From an uncultured Prevotellaceae bacterium (GTDB taxonomy: Bacteria; Bacteroidota; Bacteroidia; Bacteroidales; Muribaculaceae), in NCBI GenBank assembly GCA_946186575.1, contig CAMHNO010000001.1, positions 153,246 to 217,245 on the forward strand: 64,000 bases of DNA, written 5' to 3'. Below are positions 1 through 4,753 of the stretch, piece after piece. How positions within the stretch are numbered: position 1 is the stretch's first letter; every line of letters starts with the position of its first letter. Under the pieces are notes generated by a model that worked only from the letters and a program-made list of their open reading frames with translations, ran no database searches and was not told the origin of the DNA. The position numbers and the translations under genes are program-made.

Positions 1-1385
1 CGAGTGGCAGTCCAATAATATCCTGTTTGTCCAACTGAGAAAAATCTCATGTCATAGCGAAATCCAACCATAGGCAAGAAAATGGAATTGCCATTAGGCC
101 CAGTGACCAAGTAGCCTGGCAAGGTGCCTGGTTTGCTTATAAACTTCCAGGTGCATTTCTTTATCAACTCCTGAAAGTCGCTTTTCACCGGTAATCGCCA
201 TCGCCCGCCCCACAGAACATGGGCGGCATCAAACCGAGTGCCCTCGAAGCTTGCAGTCGAGTCTAAGGAGTGATTGCCATAGCAGTAGCCCGCAAGCACA
301 GTGCGCGGGTCTTTGTTGCCAGCGCCAATCATGGCCCCTGGTGCTGCGAGGCATGGACCACTTGCCCCAAGATTGAATGGTGCCCACAGCACGCTCAGTC
401 CAAGGTCAACAGCTTCGCTTTCAGGAATATTGTGGGGAAAGTTAATAGAACCCGGATTAGTAAGAAACACGGTAAAACCTTTCTCCACAACATTGACGGC
501 AGTAAGCGTGGTGTCTCTCGACAGGGCTATGCTGTCGCCAAGCGTCCAGCCTGGGATTTCAGTGTTTTGGTTAGCGGCAAGTTGTGTTGTTCCTGAATTG
601 TAGTTAAAGTTATATCCCCACAAAAATGCTGCGACACACAATGCGGCAACAGCAACAGCAATAAATGCCAGCATCTTGTTTCGATGACTGCTGGTCGCCG
701 TCTGACGCAGAGCTTCAAGCAGTTGGGATGCTCCAGCGTAGCGGTCTTCGGGATTAATACTCGTGGCTTTACTCACGACACTACCATATCGCTTGGGCAA
801 CTTCATGTCTTCCATGATTTTGCCAAGTGAGTAGATGTCGCTTCTGGCATCGGCGGTTTTATGCTTATCGAGCACTTCGAGAGCGACATAATGGGTAGTG
901 CCAGCTGCCCCCTTGAGCGAAGAATAGCTATCGGTGTCGCTAAGGCCGAAGTCTATAATTTTTACATGATAGCCATCACTGGTTATCATGATATTTGATG
1001 GCTTGAGGTCGCGATGTATTACTTGCATGTCATGGCAATGTGCCACAGCACGCAACAGCTCTTGCAGCGTGCTGAGTTTTTCTTTAGTGCTGTGCTGTTG
1101 TGTGAGCCATTGGCCGAGTGTAACGCCGTCGATCCACTCCTCAACTATGCAAAGCCCTATTGGGGCTACTCTCTCGATGCTCACCACGCCCACAATGCCC
1201 GGATGATGAAGACGCATGGCGATGTCAAATTCTTTGCTCAAGAGGTCGATATAAAGCCTATTGTTGGCAAACTGGGGCTTGAGCCCCTTGAGCAGCCATC
1301 GCTTGCCAAATCGCTCGCCGCATGCCAGCACGTTGAACGGGCTGGCTGTGTTAATGGGAGTGATATTTTGAATTTGCCTTTTCAA
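1..1385 (-). CDS. Membrane Ser/Thr protein kinase with extracytoplasmic FISUMP-like domain (partial, runs off left edge)
   Basis: The reading frame is open from about base 1385 to the window edge (about 461 codons), so the C-terminus is missing. Read directly, it holds a kinase domain with the catalytic loop IHRDLKPSN and an intact DFG followed by a recognisable activation segment (GTTHYVALEVLD), so it should be an active Hanks-type kinase. One transmembrane helix follows (about bases 595-670), then an outer domain beginning AVDLGLSVLWAPFNLG with a WGGRWRLP motif, matching the Fibrobacter-major-paralogue (FISUMP-like) domain common in Bacteroidetes surface proteins. No ATG lies in frame near the 5' end. 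A TTG at 1385, 11 nt after the upstream stop, fits best by alignment with the neighbouring paralogue. It is last in the uvrB-ygiQ-kinase operon. The target is unknown. Confidence 0.85.
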   Translation of the reverse strand, partial: MKRQIQNITPINTASPFNVLACGERFGKRWLLKGLKPQFANNRLYIDLLSKEFDIAMRLHHPGIVGVVSIERVAPIGLCIVEEWIDGVTLGQWLTQQHSTKEKLSTLQELLRAVAHCHDMQVIHRDLKPSNIMITSDGYHVKIIDFGLSDTDSYSSLKGAAGTTHYVALEVLDKHKTADARSDIYSLGKIMEDMKLPKRYGSVVSKATSINPEDRYAGASQLLEALRQTATSSHRNKMLAFIAVAVAALCVAAFLWGYNFNYNSGTTQLAANQNTEIPGWTLGDSIALSRDTTLTAVNVVEKGFTVFLTNPGSINFPHNIPESEAVDLGLSVLWAPFNLGASGPCLAAPGAMIGAGNKDPRTVLAGYCYGNHSLDSTASFEGTRFDAAHVLWGGRWRLPVKSDFQELIKKCTWKFISKPGTLPGYLVTGPNGNSIFLPMVGFRYDMRFFSVGQTGYYWTAT

Positions 1386-1396
1386 GTGTGGGATGT

Positions 1397-2842
1397 TTAT
1401 TGGTCTAAAACGGGTCGAATGGTCATTAGGCAGTTGACGGCATTGGTCTTGTCGCTGATGATTTTAGCCTCGTCAAAGAAAATATAATGCGCCATGCGCT
1501 TGCCATCAGGGGATGGGTTAGCAGTCCAGTAGTAACCATATCGGCCTATGTTCTGGTAGTTAATGCCATCGTCGCTCCACCCGGCAAGAGGCATAAAAAT
1601 GCTATTGCCATTAGTTCCCGTCACCACATAGCCCGCAGCACCATCACCAGCGTTGCGAAATTTCCAATCACATTTAGTGATTAGCTCGCTAAACTCCTCA
1701 AGGGTGGGCATGCGCCACTTGCCACCCCAACGCTCATGCACAAAATCAATGTCTGTTCCAGAGATTGGAGTGGTGGGCATTGAGCGTTCTTGGGGCCAGT
1801 AAGCGTCTATTTCACCCCATTTGGTCTTATCGGTGGTGTCGCCCCAGCAATAAAAACTTCCCACGAAGTTTACCGAGGGGTGGCTTGCTCCCATGTTCAT
1901 CTTAGCCCATTTCACGCTAAGCCCTAAGTCAACTGCCATTGTGTCGGGTATGTTTCCTGGTGTAATAGAGTCGAATGGCAAGTAGTATACGTCAGCAAGT
2001 GAGATAGTGGAAAATGTGACATTTGCACCAGGAACGATGCTGTCAACGACATAACCCTCAGGCAGTTTCTTACGCTCTTCTTGTTGCTTCCTTCCACCAA
2101 ATGTGAAAGCGGCTATCGCGGCCGCTATCACAACAATGGCTGCAACAGCAATGGCTATCCATCGCAGCGGCTGGCGAGTTTCGGCCTTGCCAAAGTCATC
2201 ATTAAGCTGCTCCATGGTCCCATATTTCCCATTCATGCAACGCTTTATAACGCTATTATATTTCTTGGGCAATTGCAGCAGCTTTAGAAGTCCTGCCAAA
2301 GCAATGATGTCGGCACGACTGCCCCCACTGGGCTGATTGGGCTCAAAGTCGATGAGTTTAACATTTGAGCCATTATGAGTGATTAGCACGTTGCTTGGCT
2401 TTAAGTTGCCGTGTGCAACACCCTTGCTTGCCGCATATCGCACTGCCTCGATTAGTTGCTTGGCAATGCCCAAGCGGGTTTCCAAGTTTGGCTGGCTCAC
2501 CAAAAAACTGTCGAGGCTCACTCCGTCAATCCACTCCTCGACTATGCACTGTCCTTGCAGTAACGGCACCCCTTGTTGAGTAATGACACGAGCAATATTG
2601 GGATGCCACATCATTATGACACGCGCAAACTCGCTATTTATCAATTCTTGGGCTTTCTCGGCGGGCGAAAATTGAGGATTGACACTTTTCACAATCCACC
2701 ACTGCCCAAACCTCCGAGCCCTGTGGATGCTGAGCCATGGTCGCTTGCAGGACAACGGTGTCATATCGGTGAACTGGCTTGCCAGCTCACCATCCATGTC
2801 CTCAAAAAAGCTCGAAGAGTTATATAAGTTGCTCTCTTGCAT
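1397..2842 (-). CDS. Membrane pseudokinase with FISUMP-like ectodomain
   Basis: This 481-residue paralogue of the next gene downstream has a kinase-like fold at about residues 36-215, one transmembrane helix at about 228-248, and an outer FISUMP-like domain (VDLGLSVKWAKMNMGAS, WGGKWRMP). The beta3 lysine (WIVKS, K52) is kept. The catalytic HRD is HGN at 144-146, so the proton-acceptor aspartate is lost, and DFG is DFE at 165-167. The activation loop is almost absent, with no APE-like motif. It should therefore not phosphorylate substrates, though it could bind nucleotide or act as an allosteric partner or decoy for the adjacent kinase. It starts 6 bases after ygiQ ends, so it is co-transcribed. 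The ligand of the outer domain is unknown. Confidence 0.85.
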   Translation of the reverse strand: MQESNLYNSSSFFEDMDGELASQFTDMTPLSCKRPWLSIHRARRFGQWWIVKSVNPQFSPAEKAQELINSEFARVIMMWHPNIARVITQQGVPLLQGQCIVEEWIDGVSLDSFLVSQPNLETRLGIAKQLIEAVRYAASKGVAHGNLKPSNVLITHNGSNVKLIDFEPNQPSGGSRADIIALAGLLKLLQLPKKYNSVIKRCMNGKYGTMEQLNDDFGKAETRQPLRWIAIAVAAIVVIAAAIAAFTFGGRKQQEERKKLPEGYVVDSIVPGANVTFSTISLADVYYLPFDSITPGNIPDTMAVDLGLSVKWAKMNMGASHPSVNFVGSFYCWGDTTDKTKWGEIDAYWPQERSMPTTPISGTDIDFVHERWGGKWRMPTLEEFSELITKCDWKFRNAGDGAAGYVVTGTNGNSIFMPLAGWSDDGINYQNIGRYGYYWTANPSPDGKRMAHYIFFDEAKIISDKTNAVNCLMTIRPVLDQ

Positions 2843-2848
2843 AGGGCA

Positions 2849-4739
2849 TTATTTCTTGTTTCGTTTTCGACGCAGCACTCCCCCATTGGAGTTTTTGCTG
2901 GCTGATGCCAAACCTGCCGCCGTGGGATATAGCTTGGCAATCAGGTCATGACGATGCATCTTCTTGAGCGACTTTATGATGTCGGCCTTGTACTGCTTGT
3001 CATACCAGAAGAAATATTTGCGCTGCGAGAGTTTTTCCTCCTTGCTGTGGGCGCAGTAAATGGGCTCGAGGGTGTAGGGGTGCAGGCCGGTGTAGAAAGC
3101 CTCGGTAGCCACGGTCATGGGCGTGGGCGTGAAGTCCTGCACTTGTTCCAGATGGAAATTCAGCTCTTTGGTCTGCGCGGCAAGTTCGGCCATGTCGGCA
3201 TCGGTACAGGCGGGATGCGACGATATAAAATATGGAATAAGCTGCTGGTTGAGGTGGTAACGCTCATTCACGCGGTCGAAGATGCGCTTGAACTGCCTGA
3301 ACAACTCAAACGACGGCTTGCGCATGACACGCAGCACCGCATCGCTTGTGTGCTCGGGAGCCACCTTCAAGCGCCCCGACACATGGAAGCGGATGAGCTC
3401 CTCAAGATATTGAGCATTGGCCTTGTCAACCTCGGAATCGCCACTGCGGTGCATCGACAAGTCATATCGCACACCGCTGCCAATGAACGATTTCTTAACC
3501 CCTGGCAGCGCATCGGCGCTGTGGTAGATGTCGAGCAGTGGCCTATGGTCGTTGTTAAGATTAGGACAAGGCTTGGGATGCAGGCACGACGGGCGGGTGC
3601 AGCGCTTGCAACGCTCCAAATCGCGGCCATGCATGGCATACATGTTGGCACTGGGGCCGCCCAGGTCGCTGATGTAGCCTTTGAAGTCCTCCATCTTGAC
3701 GACTTGCTTAACCTCGCGCATGATCGACTCCTTGCTACGCGAGGCGATAAACTTGCCCTGATGTGCGCTGATGGTGCAAAAGGCGCAGCCGCCGAAACAG
3801 CCACGATGCATGCACACCGAGTGGCGTATCATCTCGTAGGCCGGGATGTGCTTGCCGCGATAGCGGGGATGTGGCAGGCGCGTGTATGGCAAGTCGAACG
3901 AGGCATCGACCTGCTCAGTTGTCATGGGCGGATTCATGGGATTGACTTTAACAGCCACTTCGCCGGTAGCCTGCCACAGGGTGTGGCCATGCCAGCGATT
4001 GCTCTCAATCTCAATGTTGCGGAAGTTCTCGGCCTGGCAACGCTTGCTCTCTTGGCATTGCAAGAAGGAGTGAAGCACGATGTTCTCGTCATCATCACAG
4101 GCTGGTATCTCGCTCAATGGGCGGCGCACCACCGTCTGTGGGATAGAGGACAAGTCTTCAATCTTGGCACCAGCGCTCAATGCCTGGGCAATGGTCACTA
4201 TTGCGAGCTCACCCATGCCATAGGTGATGATATCGACTGGCGCACTCTGCATTATTGAGGGCATGAGTCGGTCTTGCCAGTAGTCGTAGTGCGACAGTCG
4301 CCTGAGCGATGCCTCGATGCCGCCAGCCACCACTGGCACGTCGGGGAATAGCTTTTTGAGGATTTCGCTATAGACAATGGTGGGATAGTCGGGGCGAGCA
4401 CCGGCACGCCCGCCAGGAGTGTAGGCATCATCGCTGCGGCGTCGGCGGTTGGCGGTGTAGTGGTTAACCATCGAGTCCATTGCTCCAGCCGAGATCCCAA
4501 AGAACAGCCTGGGCTTGCCCAGCTTCCTGAAGTCGCGCAGGTCGTCGCGCCAGTTGGGTTGCGGCACCACAGCCACATTGTAGCCGTGAGCCTCTAACGT
4601 GCGGCCAATCACTGCCGTGCCCATCGACGGGTGGTCGATATAGGCATCGCCCGTGAAGAGAATCACGTCGATGTGGTCCCACCCCAAGTGCTCAATCTCC
4701 TTGAGTGTGGTGGGCAACCATTGTCCATCGATATGTCGG

Positions 4740-4753
<14 letters not shown>
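2849..4753 (-). CDS. ygiQ: YgiQ family radical SAM protein (UPF0313)
   Basis: The 634-residue protein has the radical SAM cysteine triad CFGGCAFC (C319, C323, C326), which would bind a 4Fe-4S cluster and S-adenosylmethionine. Around it lie the long N-terminal and C-terminal regions typical of the YgiQ family. Further cysteines (RCKRCTRPSC, then CPNLN) lie beyond the triad. The biochemical role of the family is not established. Its ATG lies inside the end of uvrB (14-nt overlap), so the two are translationally coupled, and the pseudokinase gene follows after 6 bases. Length and motifs look complete. Confidence 0.95.

Follow-up and report, generated by a model that had tools for sequence, protein, structure and literature searches.

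Why would a bacterium keep a degenerate copy of a membrane kinase directly in front of a working one? The question is raised by two adjacent genes at the start of a 64,000-nucleotide stretch of DNA (hereafter the window) from an uncultured Prevotellaceae bacterium (GenBank assembly GCA_946186575.1, contig CAMHNO010000001.1, positions 153,246 to 217,245), where a pseudokinase gene precedes an active kinase gene on the reverse strand. We propose, with a probability of roughly 55%, that the products of the two genes together form an obligate two-chain membrane Ser/Thr receptor kinase. Three observations suggest this: the pair behaves as one unit towards a small neighbouring protein (here called TL), either chain lacks features retained in the other, and neither chain was found intact on its own among the high-scoring matches in the genus.

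Anatomy of the two chains

Both chains combine a kinase fold, one strong hydrophobic helix following the kinase domain and an outer domain resembling FISUMP, the Fibrobacter succinogenes major domain (Table 1). An earlier sequence-only reading of this DNA had described this common layout, which holds, the FISUMP likeness being fair but weak. It had also reported HGN, DFE and almost no activation loop upstream and intact HRD and DFG downstream, and the motif positions agree. The pseudokinase carries K52, E71, HGN at 144-146, N151 and DFE at 165-167, with about 10 residues from DFE to the aF aspartate D178 versus 32-35 from DFG in catalytically complete kinases. The active kinase possesses the K, E, HRD, N and DFG residues, reads ALE at the APE position and has a full activation segment of 35 residues. 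The two kinase domains are 34% identical and score 42.4 bits (pseudokinase) and 107.3 bits (active kinase) against Pfam Pkinase (PF00069), whose curated cut-off is 31.7 bits. If a pseudokinase is defined by the loss of at least one of the b3 Lys, the HRD Asp and the DFG Asp, the upstream chain belongs to this class, the HRD Asp being replaced in all 14 judgeable pseudokinases of the family. We infer from these residues that the upstream chain has lost activity and is unable to phosphorylate in the usual way.

The outer domains of the two chains are 41% identical across 182 aligned residues. That of the pseudokinase scores 20.5 bits against Fib_succ_major (PF09603, cut-off 33.9) and 15.0 bits against TIGR02145 (cut-off 41.65), and, as these scores lie under the curated cut-offs, is termed no more than FISUMP-like. 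For the outer part of the full-length active kinase, the sole match is a weak one to Lcl_C. Among 26 related proteins, Fib_succ_major is matched by one and Lcl_C by eight at E 0.001, and all 26 members of alignment A3 match the protein kinase family PF00069 at E 0.001 or better. The best NCBIfam match of the active chain, PknB_PASTA_kin (NF033483), reaches 121.6 bits over the kinase domain only, with a cut-off of 450, and neither a score above this cut-off nor any PASTA match, the marks of a PASTA kinase, was found. The active kinase has a putative TTG start 11 nucleotides past the pseudokinase stop, and its complete open reading frame (ORF; L009:7069-8631, 520 residues) ends 178 bases beyond the window.

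Table 1. Coordinates of the kinase pair, its parts and the preceding ORF (window positions)
Feature	Position	Strand	Details
Pseudokinase, upstream chain	1397..2842	-	481 aa, ATG start; Ser motif at the N terminus, then a degenerate kinase domain, a single membrane helix and a FISUMP-like ectodomain
N-terminal motif YNSSSFFE, residues 7-14	2801..2824	-	Corresponds to S-G-hydrophobic in stand-alone kinases; lacking in the active partner
Catalytic loop HGNLKPSN	2390..2413	-	HRD replaced by HGN, Asn151 retained
DFE for DFG and activation-segment remnant to aF aspartate D178	2309..2353	-	
Single membrane helix of the pseudokinase	2099..2164	-	Residues about 227-248, from hydropathy
FISUMP-like ectodomain of the pseudokinase	1397..1975	-	About residues 290-481
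Active kinase, downstream chain	3..1385	-	461 of 520 aa in the window; ORF open at window edge
Active kinase HRDLKPSN to DFGLSD, intact	936..1016	-	
Single membrane helix of the active kinase	612..671	-	
ORF 5' of the pseudokinase	2849..4753	-	6 nt gap; absent beside the pair in relatives examined, so outside the unit

The pair is conserved and each chain lacks what the other retains

A profile from three pseudokinase domains was searched against 101 genomes of the genus and the matches were ranked by score; genome counts are lower bounds because many of these genomes are incomplete. Among the matches listed, a pseudokinase followed by an adjacent, co-oriented active kinase occurs in 13 of the 101 genomes (G000, G001, G015, G028, G065, G072, G078, G084, G092, G096, G100, G110 and G112), G028 having a run of N within the pseudokinase gene. 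Recurrence in at least 13 of 101 genomes is more than chance. A full-length active-partner profile scores 775-858 bits in exactly these 13 genomes and at most 433 bits elsewhere, the next-best genomes being G090, G087 and G089. The pseudokinase of G094 is cut by the contig end after 105 residues, and in G087, at a contig edge, a downstream member is accompanied by no more than the outer-domain end of its upstream counterpart. The pair-bearing records are labelled as uncultured Bacteroidales (Prevotellaceae, Muribaculaceae or Porphyromonadaceae), several of them as coming from ruminant forestomachs. In a set of 393 order-level genomes that includes the window's own, the best match outside the window genome reaches 148.7 bits (L178, with HQD and DFG).

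The family alignment comprises 92 ORFs: 59 stand-alone kinases, 16 downstream partners, 14 pseudokinases, 2 complete upstream members and 1 fragment. ORF starts were set mechanically, leaving L122 and a few others over-extended at the N terminus, and the stand-alone kinases are not representative of all kinases of the genus, since they were chosen by similarity to the pseudokinase profile and generic ones were excluded by score. All 59 retain the Lys, the HRD Asp (HLD in two), the Asn and the DFG Asp (with DFS, DMG and DLG variants), and the only degenerate members of the alignment are upstream members of pairs and a broken copy in G033. All 14 judgeable pseudokinases lack both the HRD aspartate and the activation segment, the letters being HGN/DFE in eight, HGN/AFG in two, HGH/NFD in two, HCN/AFR in one (G100) and HGH/GMT in one.

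These data bear directly on the sequence-only reading, which had suggested surveying homologues for the same pairing and HGN/DFE changes and had named as refuting cases a degenerate copy standing alone or one with the usual catalytic residues. The pairing is indeed conserved, with purifying selection and co-divergence besides, and the loss of the aspartate and of the activation segment is general, but the letters vary. A lone copy does exist in G033; however, this 336-residue pseudokinase breaks off within the membrane helix and has neither outer domain nor partner, and the high-scoring matches in the genus include no pseudokinase that is both intact and alone. Upstream copies with the usual residues (HCD, DFG and APE) likewise exist, in G089 and G090, but these are paired and are sister to the pseudokinases. 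Both cases refine the claim rather than overturn it.

The losses of the two chains are reciprocal. Of the 59 stand-alone kinases, 55 carry an S-G-hydrophobic motif in acidic surroundings some 30 positions ahead of the kinase core, versus 6.8 expected by shuffling; in the pseudokinases the motif takes the form S-S/G/D-F-F/Y. In the alignment, its serine is present in 59/59 stand-alone kinases, 13/13 pseudokinases and 2/2 complete upstream members, and 12 of 13 active partners show a gap at this position. Cys202 occurs in 59/59, 13/13 and 2/2 of the same groups and in none of 13 active partners. These patterns place catalysis and tail in separate chains. A pattern search for the tail motif matched two of the 16 active partners (SSP in L122 and SEV in L126), hits that we judge spurious from where they lie, and failed in two of the 14 pseudokinases, of which one is interrupted by the gap and the other reads SGSDF. 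The downstream members of the complete pairs also lack the N-terminal tail. In G076, motif, catalytic residues, membrane helix and ectodomain occur in a single chain, with TL adjoining.

The pseudokinase is under purifying selection, with a ratio of nonsynonymous to synonymous substitution rates (dN/dS) of 0.06-0.21 for its kinase domain in 9 of 10 comparisons, the computable ones, which overlap, are not independent and are rough where the synonymous rate (dS) exceeds 1. Within the window's group (6 of the 7 other genomes compared), identity to the window is 68-75% for the pseudokinase ectodomain and 48-60% for that of the partner. Pseudokinase, kinase and TL trees display an identical two-group split of genomes, and the activation-segment deletion is common to the two deep lineages of the pseudokinase clade.

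TL is a protein of about 190 residues encoded beside family kinases, and was counted in 17 genomes chosen for holding a pair or its remnants. There, 61 of 106 kinase hits were kept (those of at least 108 bits and two truncated pair members at 90.7 and 85.2 bits), the others, at 94.1 bits or less, being dropped as generic. With a pair taken as one unit, the 61 kinases form 45 units, 40 of which have TL within 7 kb; the remaining five are the lone copy of G033, two complete pairs and two units in G096. Conversely, 40 of 47 TL genes have a family kinase within 7 kb. All 13 pairs have one TL within this distance on the opposite strand, the window genome holds four TL genes for four kinase units, and TL adjoins the kinase in eight of the best nine order-level loci examined outside the window genome. 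TL has no convincing match in Pfam, NCBIfam or PHROGs, phosphopeptide-binding families included; its weak matches are a single PADLOC hit (Csx3, E 0.0073) and a best PDB hit at E 0.061, and its N-terminal half was found only in TL-size ORFs (6 genomes). From the sequence pattern, a helix-turn-helix plus a barrel is our guess for its fold. As separate observations, an 82-bp unit repeated 3.6 times (L009:6718-7010) lies just beyond the window, where the active kinase and TL genes converge, and G096 has a further tandem pair of kinase hits (C29:98425-100818) with no TL nearby.

Origin, mechanism and competing explanations

Trees were built without the trait columns from 90 rows and from a smaller set of 42 rows, omitting the G028 pseudokinase. 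Pseudokinases and complete upstream members group together (SH-aLRT, the Shimodaira-Hasegawa-like approximate likelihood ratio test, 99 with 90 rows; 99/98 with 42 rows), as do the pseudokinases alone (91; 82/68) and their partners (95; 85/82). A plain local tandem duplication just before degeneration, later than the split from the complete pairs, was tested by keeping pseudokinases and their own partners together apart from those pairs; this lowers the log-likelihood by 23.5 units and is rejected by the approximately unbiased (AU) test (p 0.0043; 42/90 rows), the groups having been named only after the first tree had been seen. Because the complete upstream members are a paired sister group of the pseudokinases and this late duplication is rejected, pairing probably preceded the loss of catalysis in an upstream lineage of working kinases. 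HCD, HCN (G100) and HGN/HGH look like successive steps of this loss, in a putative order. A tentative extension, to which we give somewhat less than an even chance, is that reciprocal loss turned one receptor kinase into two obligate chains, catalysis remaining in one and the serine tail with the better-conserved sensor in the other, and that a complete sister of the dead chain survives in related species, all within a family of SG-motif membrane kinases with TL proteins across Bacteroidales.

In the proposed mechanism, both chains would span the inner membrane once, exposing related FISUMP-like domains outside. The downstream chain would perform catalysis, and the upstream chain would provide the conserved N-terminal serine tail that its partner lost; most likely it would also contribute the more constrained ectodomain and a surface for allosteric dimerisation. 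A ligand or envelope signal may alter the ectodomain dimer, upon which the pseudokinase would switch its active partner on or off; that partner could then phosphorylate a target in trans, perhaps the acidic serine tail of the pseudokinase, and the signal would pass to TL as a dedicated partner protein. The heterodimer and the common ligand class suggested in the sequence-only reading are putative, as are the allostery, the trans-phosphorylation and the effector role of TL.

Several findings weigh against the two-chain reading. The upstream gene of G090 is split by an in-frame stop 3' of its kinase domain, the complete pairs of G089 and G090 have no nearby TL, and 7 of the 47 TL genes lack a family kinase nearby. 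In addition, the two TL groups of the pair genomes are not sisters in the TL tree, and in the best trees the active partners of the complete pairs do not join those of the pseudokinases. Constraining all active partners to stay together is nevertheless not rejected (AU p 0.26 and 0.143), and with AU p values of 0.26, 0.267 and 0.143 for a basal duplication shared by all pairs, a single root duplication is neither demonstrated nor rejected. G112 (L119) is a recombination mosaic, the first 600 bases or so of its pair being G001-like and much of the remainder G092-like; as this joins a G001-type pseudokinase domain to a G092-type kinase, the chains are not strictly co-adapted at the species level. 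The co-inheritance of neighbouring genes can also be explained by linkage alone.

Among the alternatives, we consider it unlikely, though deserving some weight, that the pseudokinase is mainly a substrate whose acidic serine tail, once phosphorylated by the neighbouring kinase, recruits TL or another protein with no need for allostery. Such a role would accord with the invariance of the N-terminal serine in the alignment outside the active partners and with the excess and acidic setting of the motif in stand-alone kinases, and has a precedent in the PknB-phosphorylated MviN that recruits FhaA, as described in the passages available from a 2025 review (PMC12599244). However, the active stand-alone kinases bear the motif too, which could equally serve docking or autoregulation, and TL resembles no phosphopeptide-binding family convincingly.

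It is rather improbable that the pseudokinase is an inhibitory decoy, dampening the active kinase through non-productive dimers or ligand capture. The common layout and the related ectodomain would suit a decoy, as would an excess of pseudokinase: in seven of the eight genomes of the window's group, no in-frame kinase ATG lies between the last upstream stop and the kinase core, where only TTG or CTG is available, and translation of the kinase may perhaps be lower than that of the pseudokinase. A decoy nevertheless leaves two points unexplained: the loss of the N-terminal motif and Cys202 from the active chain, and the fact that every genome in which the partner clade was found also has a pseudokinase.

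We give very little credence to an alternative catalysis, in which the pseudokinase would use ATP for another transfer, like SelO or SidJ. The window protein and seven others retain the b3 Lys, the aC Glu, the catalytic-loop Asn and the DFG Asp; of the other six, however, the b3 Lys is T in five (the sixth being unjudgeable) and the DFG Asp is N, A or G in all, although five of the six are paired like the window's. One group retaining the nucleotide-binding residues while the other lost most of them argues against a conserved alternative catalysis. Ordinary decay of a tandem copy into a pseudogene, to which the broken G033 remnant and the lineage-specific catalytic letters might point, is scarcely credible in view of the dN/dS values, the highly conserved ectodomain and the activation-segment deletion shared by two deep lineages.

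Relation to known systems and genomic surroundings

The window pseudokinase resembles the pseudokinase domain JH2 of the animal JAK kinases in its HGN motif and in preceding an active kinase (JH1 in JAK), whereas JAK is one polypeptide and a tyrosine kinase with other domains, and the similarity sits within generic kinase matches. A PDB search with residues 85-171 alone ranks 7t6f_A first (E 1.2e-6 over the whole sequence and 0.0033 for the HGN-bearing stretch), a chain that we take to be JAK1 JH2; one named JAK1 (4l00_A) stands lower in the list. With the full-length pseudokinase, the bacterial kinase 7mxj_A ranks first. Because the bacterial sister proteins have HCD, the common HGN is most simply explained as convergent. 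Like PknB-type receptor Ser/Thr kinases, the window family has a cytoplasmic kinase, one membrane helix and an outer sensor domain, but it differs in its FISUMP-like outer domain, N-terminal serine tail motif, TL partner and lack of a PASTA match.

Closer bacterial parallels come from the 2025 review of bacterial pseudokinases, which covers ActPs1-3, GLW, CP1, DYD, DLHK, EssB/YukC, SidJ and SelO (PMC12599244). According to its available passages, MviN, of the actinobacterial ActPs3 family, is a membrane protein with a Ser/Thr-type pseudokinase that acts with PknB; it shares with the window pseudokinase the membrane location, degraded motifs, activation-loop deletion and cooperation with an active kinase (PMC12599244). 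MviN differs, in the same passages, in being a peptidoglycan-synthesis membrane protein that is no paralogous neighbour of PknB (the MviN operon given there lists no kinase), in having an ATP pocket filled by aromatic residues and in the absence of any described FISUMP-like domain (PMC12599244). Of the ActPs3 traits as the passages define them, the window protein displays the activation-loop deletion and the post-kinase membrane helix of many members, and it departs from the complete degradation of catalytic motifs by retaining the b3 Lys and the DFG Asp (PMC12599244). EssB/YukC of Firmicutes is likewise a membrane pseudokinase with an attenuated activation loop and a scaffold role, but it is a type VII secretion component for which the passages describe no paired paralogous kinase (PMC12599244).

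The strings "Bacteroid", "pair" and "FISUMP" do not occur in the accessible text of that review (PMC12599244). The open-access literature searched yielded nothing on an operon of a bacterial pseudokinase and an active kinase, on Hanks-type kinases together with Bacteroides, on the FISUMP domain, or on Fibrobacter succinogenes major with a kinase, and among the titles and abstract openings matched by broader searches none describes such a pair, subscription literature lying outside this scope. Bacterial pseudokinases have so far been known mainly as families without an assigned function. In the present case, genomes supply an active partner, a sister lineage of the pseudokinase with intact catalytic residues, a relative that is one chain and a candidate for the downstream protein, making it directly testable in a small cytoplasmic system why a dead kinase is retained and of what use it is to the living one. 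The series HRD, HCD, HCN and HGN allows catalytic loss to be traced in a paired setting, and the linkage of kinases with TL points to a signalling family of gut and rumen Bacteroidales that is unnamed in the libraries used.

The ORF preceding the pseudokinase presumably encodes a YgiQ-like radical SAM protein, judging from its sequence. PADLOC returned many matches to kinase models (PD-T4-6, MADS6 and others), which we read as generic rather than as signs of a defence system, no search having been aimed at defence context. A mobile origin was rejected, as 4 phage and 10 plasmid records gave only partial matches below 60% identity, none covering 80% of the protein. Elsewhere in the window genome (contig C35), a 585-residue protein (L013:6723-8480, reverse strand) has an N-terminal degenerate kinase domain, with HNN for HRD and TGF for DFG, and a C-terminal part resembling an AAA+ ATPase, and adjoins an Hsp70-like gene (both names being given from sequence) and a family kinase with TL. 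Two more uncharacterised proteins of about 275 and 312 residues (L049:1377-3831 and L050:7868-9690) recur near the pairs in several genomes.

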